64,000 nucleotides of DNA from a candidate division KSB1 bacterium (GTDB taxonomy: Bacteria; Zhuqueibacterota; Zhuqueibacteria; Residuimicrobiales; Krinioviventaceae), in NCBI GenBank assembly GCA_034521575.1, contig JAXHMJ010000005.1:2480001-2544000 (forward strand). The letters run 5' to 3'. Every line of letters begins with the position of its first letter. Within the stretch, counting starts at the first letter, position 1. Under the pieces are notes generated by a model that was not told where the DNA came from, did not search any database, and saw only the letters and a list, made by a program, of their open reading frames with translations. Shown here in pieces: positions 57,729 to 60,282 of this stretch. Both the position numbers and the translations under genes were made by a program.

Positions 57729-58146
57729 TCAGTGTAATGCATTTTTCAGGATCAGGTATAGCCAATTTAACGGTATACTGATTAATCCTGCTATAAAAAT
57801 CACTTTACGTTCTCTGTCCGATATTAGGATTTGTATGTTTTGTTTGAACCACCATCCTGCTGCTGAATTGAGAGCCCATAAAAGTAAAAGAACGTATAAT
57901 AAAAAGAACAATGGATTGGTGGTAAAAGCTTCCCAAATGTGTAAATGACTTGATATATACACCGGTTCTCGTGGCGCCGCATGACGGACACGGCAGACCA
58001 CTCCATTCCTTAAAAAGGCAGGGAGGAATAGAATTAAGCAGGTTGGGTACAAATAAGGACAAACAGAGTCCGAACAGACCGATGAATCCGTAAAAAATAC
58101 CGGTTTGCACGTCTTTGAAGGTTCGTTTTTTCAGCCGGATTTCCAT
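57729..58146 (-). CDS. DUF2752 membrane protein, frame-broken
   Basis: From ATG 58146, the frame gives a first helix (GIFYGFIGLFGLCLSLFVPN) and the DUF2752 hallmark GLPCPSCGATRTG. It then runs out in the wrong frame; the next frame continues VYISSHLHIWEAFTTNPLFFLLYVLLLLWALN and a last helix to the stop at 57729. One extra base near 57955-57962 explains this. The restored protein of about 138 residues has three helices and the Cys-x-x-Cys motif of this family. Function unknown. It is first in the six-gene minus-strand operon. Confidence 0.65.
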
Positions 58147-58351: not shown

Positions 58352-58380
58352 TTGACATCTAATATATAATTTTGTAACTT
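58352..58380 (+). promoter_or_regulatory. Promoter of the trp leader
   Basis: TTGACA at 58352 and TAACTT at 58375 have 17-base spacing, and the leader starts 21 bases later with AGGAG at 58391. An alternative Bacteroides-like TAnnTTTG (58367-58374) has no matching -33 element at the right distance. Confidence 0.5.
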
Positions 58381-58400
58381 TCAATAGAACAGGAGAAATG

Positions 58401-58490
58401 ATGAATCTTGTGAACACACAAAATATTTTGATCAATTGGACCATGTGGTGGGGCTGGTGGTGGGAAACGTGTGTTCACAGTGGGATATAA
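58401..58490 (+). CDS. trpL: trp leader peptide
   Basis: A 29-codon frame starts at ATG 58401, five bases after AGGAG. It has six Trp codons in nine residues (WTMWWGWWW, codons 13-21), a density that is not expected by chance. It ends at TAA 58488, immediately before the attenuator hairpins. Ribosome stalling at these codons would sense Trp-tRNA supply and control the following TrpB2 gene. It is not an enzyme. An ATG three bases upstream is in frame but too close to the ribosome site. Confidence 0.92.
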   Translation: MNLVNTQNILINWTMWWGWWWETCVHSGI

Positions 58491-58550
58491 ACGAACAGGT
58501 ATACGAACTTTGAGCCCGCTGCGATGATAGTTACAGCGGGCTTTTTTTTT
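58409..58550 (+). promoter_or_regulatory. trp attenuator RNA (segments 1-4)
   Basis: Segment 1 (58409-58419, TGTGAACACAC) pairs perfectly with segment 2 (58469-58479, GTGTGTTCACA) over 11 bp, with the Trp codons in the loop. An antiterminator can form between CAGTGGG (58478-58484) and CCCGCTG (58515-58521), 7 bp with one G-U. The terminator itself is GCCCGCTG/CAGCGGGC, 58514-58521 and 58534-58541. This is the classical mutually exclusive set. Pairings are read from sequence; stalling behaviour is inference. Confidence 0.85.
58513..58550 (+). terminator. Attenuator terminator before trpB2
   Basis: A 9-bp GC-rich stem (AGCCCGCTG with its complement) and 12-base loop (58522-58533) run into nine Ts. 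It ends 43 bp before the trpB start codon. Confidence 0.92.
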
Positions 58551-58593
58551 GCTGGAATGATTAAATCACTAAAATACACCAAGGAGGATATTT

Positions 58594-59967
58594 ATGGAAC
58601 AAACCAAGTTTGTGTTGTCTGAAAAGGATATGCCGAGGCAATGGTATAATCTGGCAGCTGATCTCCCGCATCCGCCCCTTCCGCCGCTGGGTCCGGATGG
58701 AAATCCGGTTAATCCGGAACAATTGCGACCGGTCTTCCCGGATAATCTGATTGAACAGGAAATGAGCGCCGAGCGCTGGATTGATATCCCGGAAGAAATT
58801 CTGGAGATTTATTCCCTGTGGCGTCCTTCGCCTTTATACCGGGCCCGCCGTCTTGAAAAGGCTTTGGGAACACCGGCAAGAATTTATTTCAAGAACGAAG
58901 GCGTCAGTCCCGCCGGAAGTCATAAACCGAATACGGCTGTCGCTCAGGCGTATTATAACAAAGAGTTTGGTATCAAACGCCTGACGACCGAAACCGGCGC
59001 AGGCCAGTGGGGCAGCGCATTGTCGTTTGCATGTTCGCTGCTTGGCCTGGAGTGCAAGGTGTTTATGGTGCGAATCAGTTTTGAACAAAAACCATTCCGC
59101 CGGTTGATGATGCAGACCTGGGGCGGGAATTGTGTTCCCAGTCCCAGTAATGAAACACAATCTGGCCGTGATATTCTTGCAAAAATGCCGGACACGCCGG
59201 GAAGTCTGGGAATTGCAATCAGCGAAGCTGTTGAACAGGCCGTCACCGATAAATCCGGGCAAACCCGTTACTCTCTGGGATCCGTACTCAATCATGTGAT
59301 GCTGCATCAGACCATCATCGGGCAGGAAGCCAAAAAGCAGCTGGAACTGGCCGGCGAAAAAAAGGTGGATGCGGTTATCGGCTGTGCAGGCGGTGGAAGT
59401 AATTTTGCCGGATTGTCTTTTCCGTTTATAGCTGACAAAATCAACGGAGCAGAGATCGATATCATTCCTGTGGAGCCCACATCCTGCCCCACGCTGACCA
59501 AAGGCCCCTATGCCTATGATTTCGGCGATGTCGCCGGGATGACGCCGCTGCTTGCTATGCATACATTGGGGCATGAGTTCGTACCCCCTCCCATCCATGC
59601 CGGAGGTCTTCGCTATCACGGAATGGCGCCGCTGGTCAGCCAGGCTGTAAAACATGGTCTCATGACTCCGCTGGCGCTGGATCAGCTGGAATGTTACGAA
59701 TCAGCTGTGAAATTTGCCCGCACAGAAGGCTTTATTTCGGCTCCGGAAACCAGTCATGCCGTGGCTGCGACCATCCGGGAAGCGCTCAAGGCAAAAGAGG
59801 AAGGCAAGGAAAAAGTCATTTTGTTCAACTGGAGCGGTCACGGATTGATGGACCTCAAAGGTTATGAACTCTTTTTCGAAGGGCATTTGGATAACTATCC
59901 GCTGCCGGATGAAGAAATTGCAAAAAGTACGGCATGTCTGAAAGATTTTCCGACACCCGAACTGTAA
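58594..59967 (+). CDS. trpB: Tryptophan synthase beta-like protein, TrpB2 type
   Basis: ATG 58594 follows AAGGAGG. The 457-residue length and N-terminal extension with [21 protein letters not shown] are typical of TrpB2 rather than TrpB1. The PLP Lys111 lies in [13 protein letters not shown], the substrate GAGQWGSAL motif is intact, and [10 protein letters not shown] holds phosphate. TrpB2 makes Trp from indole or O-phosphoserine-related substrates, often without TrpA. No other trp genes flank it. It is controlled by a Trp leader, which supports a role in tryptophan formation. Confidence 0.95.
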
Positions 59968-59974
59968 CTTTAAA

Positions 59975-60005
59975 AACGCTGTCTCCCGGAACGGGAGACA
60001 GCGTT
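59975..60005. terminator. Long perfect hairpin after trpB
   Basis: AACGCTGTCTCCCG pairs with CGGGAGACAGCGTT over 14 bp around GAA. On the plus strand no T run follows, but on the minus strand TTTTT follows (plus 59972-59976). It may thus end minus-strand transcription of the deacetylase gene, or protect the trpB mRNA. Confidence 0.6.
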
Positions 60006-60018
60006 ATAGGAGCTATAC

Positions 60019-60282
60019 ATGATAACGCAGTACGATGAACTCGAGGCAAGATGTCCGCGCCTCGGACATTTGGTAAAATTTCATTATTGCCGAAATGAGC
60101 AGGAATCAATGCCCTGCCACCGAATTTACAACTGCTGGTTTCAGCGTATTCCCATACAATCTTTTGTGCAGGCGCATTATGATCACTCTACTGTCGAGGC
60201 GCTTACCGCACCTTTGCCGGACAAAGTCGCATCGCTCATTGACTTGATTGAACAGGCTCAGCGGCGCAGTGATAAAGACTGA
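60019..60282 (+). CDS. Small Cys-containing protein of unknown function
   Basis: Eighty-seven residues starting at ATG 60019, after TAGGAGC. It has four Cys in CPRLGHLVKFHYC (positions 12 and 24), PCHRIYNCW (33 and 39), a pattern fitting a metal site. Small hypothetical proteins with CPRLGH-like starts are seen in other bacteria, but no function is known to me. It is separated from trpB by a long hairpin, so it may be co-transcribed. The last 47 bases overlap the convergent deacetylase gene. Confidence 0.7.
   Translation: MITQYDELEARCPRLGHLVKFHYCRNEQESMPCHRIYNCWFQRIPIQSFVQAHYDHSTVEALTAPLPDKVASLIDLIEQAQRRSDKD

Follow-up and report, generated by a model that had tools for sequence, protein, structure and literature searches.

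A very probable Trp-codon attenuator ahead of a stand-alone trpB2 gene in candidate division KSB1

Is a stand-alone trpB2 gene of candidate division KSB1 controlled by a tryptophan (Trp) attenuator of its own? The question is raised by a stretch of 64,000 nucleotides (the window, in what follows), in which a preliminary description had placed a Trp-codon leader between a promoter and trpB2, in a lineage outside the proteobacteria. The lineage was correctly described: the host belongs to candidate division KSB1, a group for which the name Zhuqueibacterota was later proposed and which is placed in the Fibrobacterota-Chlorobiota-Bacteroidota superphylum (PMC11683472). The results described below make it highly likely that the leader is a classical ribosome-mediated transcriptional attenuator, which would sense charged tRNA-Trp and control trpB2. 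The elements concerned are the following:

58352-58380, plus strand: trpB2 promoter (-35 TTGACA 58352-58357, 17-nt spacer, -10 TAACTT 58375-58380)
58391-58395, plus strand: AGGAG, by its sequence the Shine-Dalgarno element of the leader ORF, 5 nt from the second ATG
58401-58490, plus strand: leader peptide ORF, 29 codons and TAA (alternative ATG at 58398)
58437, 58446, 58449, 58455, 58458 and 58461, plus strand: leader Trp codons (codons 13, 16, 17, 19, 20 and 21)
58409-58419, plus strand: segment 1, the 5' arm of the 1:2 stem
58469-58484, plus strand: segment 2, of which 58469-58479 pairs with segment 1 and 58478-58484 (CAGTGGG, inside the leader ORF) is the antiterminator strand
58514-58521, plus strand: segment 3, the terminator 5' arm, of which 58515-58521 is also the partner of the antiterminator strand
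58534-58550, plus strand: segment 4, the terminator 3' arm (58534-58541) and nine Ts (58542-58550)
58594-59967, plus strand: trpB2 (TrpB-like, 457 aa; Shine-Dalgarno AGGAGG at 58582-58587)
59975-60005, plus strand: 14-bp hairpin just 3' of trpB2, without a T-run

The TrpB2 protein scored 731.7 bits with NF009057 (cut-off 366) and 642.1 bits with TIGR01415 (cut-off 518.9), and did not reach the TrpB1 model TIGR00263 trpB (155 bits, cut-off 392). Its best solved chains were 6hul_B, 4qys_B and 6hte_B, the last two of which are named TrpB2. From what is known of the family, and from the presence of the gene in relatives without trpE and trpC, the most likely role of TrpB2 is salvage, in which free indole would be joined with serine (or phosphoserine) to give Trp. 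The hairpin behind the gene is a possible 3' end of the trpB2 transcript, and the 87-aa ORF that follows it (60019-60282) had no NCBIfam or Pfam match. Upstream, the leader region lies between trpB2 and a divergent DUF2752 gene (57805-58146, minus strand).

Translation of the leader ORF gave the 29 codons and the six Trp codons, at the positions that had been claimed. Read from the second ATG the peptide is MNLVNTQNILINWTMWWGWWWETCVHSGI, and its last codons, CAC AGT GGG ATA TAA, contain the CAGTGGG sequence. The Shine-Dalgarno element and a conserved reading frame indicate that this ORF is probably translated. Stretches with at least five Trp within nine codons did not occur in 60 simulated windows (order-2 Markov) of a composition similar to that of the real one, which has one. 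The order promoter, leader, trpB2 is likewise as described, although the -10 sequence (TAACTT) is weak next to a perfect -35, and a simple promoter scan of the window did not call the pair. A promoter of the type TTGAC[A/T]-N16/17-TATATT precedes the leader in 20 of the 21 loci compared below.

Two of the three pairings proposed in the preliminary description, the 11-bp 1:2 stem (58409-58419 with 58469-58479) and the 7-bp antiterminator (58478-58484 with 58515-58521, CAGTGGG with CCCGCTG), were found as such, with one G-U pair in the latter. The third, given as a 9-bp terminator with nine Ts, does have the nine Ts, but 9 bp is an approximation: 8 bp (58514-58521 with 58534-58541) are followed by 3 bp beyond a mismatch. 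This intrinsic terminator lies 43 nt upstream of trpB2. All three pairings had been considered mutually exclusive. In the window sequence this is true for 2:3 and 3:4, whereas 1:2 and 2:3 have no more than 2 nt in common (3 if a terminal G-U is counted) and can coexist. The minimum free energy of the leader RNA was -53.3, compared with -44.1 ± 3.8 for shuffled sequences (z -2.45).

For this arrangement we infer the following course of stalling, termination and response to Trp. If Trp-tRNA is scarce, the ribosome would stall in the run of six Trp codons, segment 2, a few codons downstream, would be free to pair with segment 3 of the terminator, and with this pairing in place RNA polymerase would continue into trpB2. 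If Trp is plentiful, the ribosome would cover segment 2 on its way to the stop codon, so that the terminator could form and transcription would stop at the nine Ts. In a leader that is not being translated, the 1:2 stem would promote termination, but because of its short overlap with the antiterminator this step may be weak in the window genome.

Folding was modelled for transcripts ending before the terminator 3' arm, with the position of the ribosome imposed; under these conditions a ribosome placed midway along the Trp run gave an antiterminator probability of at least 0.96 in 20 of 21 leaders and of 0.67 in the remaining one. In the window leader the value was 0.96 with the mid-run stall and 0.01 with a stall on the first Trp codon, so that stalling would need to take place further into the run. 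The modelled outcome for a ribosome at the stop codon was partly built in, as segment 2 was masked or excluded. Folded free of ribosomes, the window transcript keeps the antiterminator (probability 1.00; it was below 0.3 in 13 of the 21 leaders), which suggests that its translation-off state may not terminate well.

Comparison with related trpB2 leaders, the check by which the preliminary description was to stand or fall, supported it. A short ORF with 3-6 clustered Trp codons, followed by an intrinsic terminator and by trpB2, was found at 21 KSB1 loci including the window, and at the 20 others the Trp-rich leader, the antiterminator strand and the terminator are kept in the same order. About 5-7 codons separate the Trp run from the antiterminator strand, a short distance that is similar across all loci and fits a stalled ribosome that leaves this strand free. 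More distant trpB2 genes of the KSB1 phylum are without the leader attenuator. At one trpB2 locus (L018, genome G046) a leader-like ORF, NHVHHNIHAHGWRMVSGIE, in which a single Trp codon is accompanied by several His codons, precedes a terminator of the conserved type; by its sequence it appears to be a decayed or changed attenuator.

All three pairings covary among the loci. The mean energy of the antiterminator duplex was -19.1 kcal/mol for strands of the same locus and -15.3 ± 0.56 kcal/mol when partners were exchanged between loci (0 of 20,000 permutations; the same result with 18 less redundant loci), and in an ungapped 19-row alignment 32 cells were double-changed against 12.7 ± 3.0 after shuffling (score 0.370 against 0.200). 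Shared ancestry, for which shuffles and permutations do not correct, may contribute to such an excess. Sliding the strands by 1-3 columns, a control that keeps ancestry, reduced the paired cells of the 12-bp antiterminator in the same alignment from 84.6% to 33-55%; the true register is thus far above these controls. Compensatory changes can be seen in the pairs CCAATAGTGGG with CCCACTATTGG (L025), ATACGTAGTGGG with CCCGCTACGTAT (L013) and GATTGTGGTGG with CCGCTGCAATC (L011). In the terminator, the core of which is GCCCGCT...AGCGGGC, three loci have A-U in place of G-C on both sides (CCCACT...AGTGGG); with the same reservation about ancestry, 11 cells were double-changed against 4.0, and the 1:2 stem scored -14.3 with its own and -10.5 ± 0.6 with swapped arms (19 loci, 0 of 20,000 permutations). 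The conservation of every part in relatives makes a classical Trp-sensing switch very probable, and the covariation of all three pairings points almost certainly to ribosome-mediated attenuation of the classical kind.

These observations also bear on other ways of reading the locus. The terminator could be real and answer another cue, such as general translation, a protein, or free Trp through a TnaC-like arrest, with the Trp codons serving peptide-specific arrest only. Behind the Trp run the peptide often has a conserved xSG, which peptide arrest could explain too, but the codons for SG form the antiterminator strand and track the RNA pairing, and the peptide is otherwise free to vary while its Trp codons remain clustered. 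In TnaC-type arrest excess Trp switches genes on, which fits Trp breakdown; such a response would not suit a gene of synthesis, and we regard this explanation as improbable. Still less probable is a reading of the ORF as an ordinary small gene, or as one that lies upstream of trpB2 and aids its translation by re-initiation, with an unrelated terminator in between. Gene-proximal leader ORFs may help re-initiation, and gaps of 10-16 bp have been described (PMC4833913), but here the gap is far larger (103 nt), and in 21 of 21 loci ORF and gene are separated by a terminator, the 5' arm of which covaries with the ORF end. Chance association of a Trp-rich ORF with a terminator, for which one could cite the 97 occurrences of TGGTGGTGG in the genome, has hardly any probability left, as its other sites, the trp operon leader excepted, are not leader-like ahead of a fitting terminator, and conservation of the attenuator in 20 relatives refutes this reading. 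At the trpB2 leader neither a T-box (a tRNA-binding leader) nor any other Rfam element reached its threshold, and these readings were rejected.

Trp attenuation is apparently wider in this genome than the preliminary description, which had it govern a lone TrpB2, would imply; the claim holds for trpB2 but not for trpB2 as the exclusive target. In the trp cluster of the window genome trpE, trpC, trpF, trpB1 and trpA were seen, and its leader, MNLVLNINNANFWWWWTFITRCATGK, is followed by two tandem terminator-like hairpins (L137, minus strand, about 505-325). Two pairing partners are available to the first hairpin, namely the end of the leader ORF (-22.8 kcal/mol) and the second hairpin, and the tandem pair recurs in relatives. 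We count this leader as a further Trp attenuator, that of the trp operon, so that attenuation would cover both the pathway and trpB2. When the TGGTGGTGG sites of the genome were inspected singly, in a scan that sees leaders with three adjacent Trp codons, only the trp operon and trpB2 qualified. No match to TGGTGGNNNTGGTGG elsewhere fell within a short leader ORF, and trpS of the window genome has no Trp leader.

The trpE attenuators of KSB1 resemble the trpB2 leader in having a Trp-rich leader and a terminator, and in distant class members the likeness extends to an AGTGGG strand and a CCCACT/AGTGGG terminator; the trpE attenuators differ from it in controlling the full pathway and in that several mix Trp and Tyr codons. 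Leaders of the mixed type were seen in L139, L140, L145, L149, L150, L160, L165 and L167 (KSB1 families f9-f11), with WRNWYWYYYTSSG and WFWYWYYYASSG as examples, and their codon content suggests attenuators that may sense Tyr besides Trp.

Neither trpE nor trpC was found in 10 (G007, G010, G014-G018, G020, G054 and G077) of the 21 genomes that have a trpB2 attenuator; these are drafts of 80-96% completeness, but five from one family agree. A convincing TrpB1 match was absent from nine of the ten, G017 having one. The trpB2 gene often remains when other genes of the Trp pathway are gone, and in these genomes the attenuated gene probably serves, under Trp control, to convert scavenged indole to Trp. 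In a quick TrpB2 tree of 101 rows the leader was present in 16 of 16 members of one KSB1 clade, in the KSB1 rows L017 and L025 and in several Bacteroidota groups, with at least five changes of state. The 16 include G077, a member of another class, whose TrpB2 (L115) nests inside the clade of the window's order and has the same kind of attenuator; this position suggests transfer of trpB2 together with its switch. We lean towards the view that a Trp-codon attenuator governs indole salvage and not biosynthesis, was kept with trpB2 after loss of trpE and trpC, and moved together with the gene between lineages (e.g. into G077). The Bacteroidota leaders are of a WRWRWWH type with an antiterminator/terminator pair of their own (own against swapped partners, p = 0.007, ten loci), and a Desulfatibacillum MAG (L105) has MPPIMGNLKTNTGFWWWRSLLSP (GFWWWRSLLSP) about 235-307 nt upstream of trpB2, a likely further case of a Trp leader. 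No such leader was seen ahead of stand-alone trpB2 in Planctomycetota and Spirochaetota loci.

A Trp switch on a stand-alone trpB2 is evidence that TrpB2 supplies Trp to the cell, and retention of the gene without trpE and trpC suggests that the indole is scavenged, which would be a testable example of dependence on neighbours. The mechanism itself is textbook knowledge. We met with no precedent for its setting on a stand-alone TrpB2 in KSB1: the open-licence full texts searched yielded no Trp attenuator for KSB1 or for stand-alone TrpB2. According to a 2010 survey, amino-acid leader peptides had been known only in Proteobacteria and Actinobacteria, to which it added Firmicutes (PMC2965389).

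The trpL leader of E. coli (RF00513) shares with the window leader the order of the parts, the Trp codons, the antiterminator/terminator alternative and a GCCCGC...GCGGGC terminator core. The RF00513 Trp_leader model scored 22.5 bits with the window leader (E 0.027 in a 401-base search), below its gathering threshold of 41 bits. E. coli trpL has two Trp codons, compared with six here, and it controls trpEDCBA in Proteobacteria, whereas the window leader would control a lone trpB2 in KSB1. Bacteroid-trp RNA (RF01692) is a candidate Trp-linked leader RNA in Bacteroidetes (PMC2864571), a group of the same superphylum as KSB1; its gathering threshold is 49 bits, and G000, G019, G025 and the Bacteroidota genomes with trpB2 leaders gave no match to it, while genome G089 gave one below the threshold (E 0.37). 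The trp attenuators of Corynebacterium and Streptomyces have, like the window leader, a leader peptide with repeated Trp codons and a poly-U terminator, and in C. diphtheriae trpB2A one precedes an operon starting with a gene called trpB2 (PMC1262725). That gene sits in a trpBA operon, whereas the window gene, TrpB-like by NF009057 and TIGR01415, stands alone and belongs to a different phylum.
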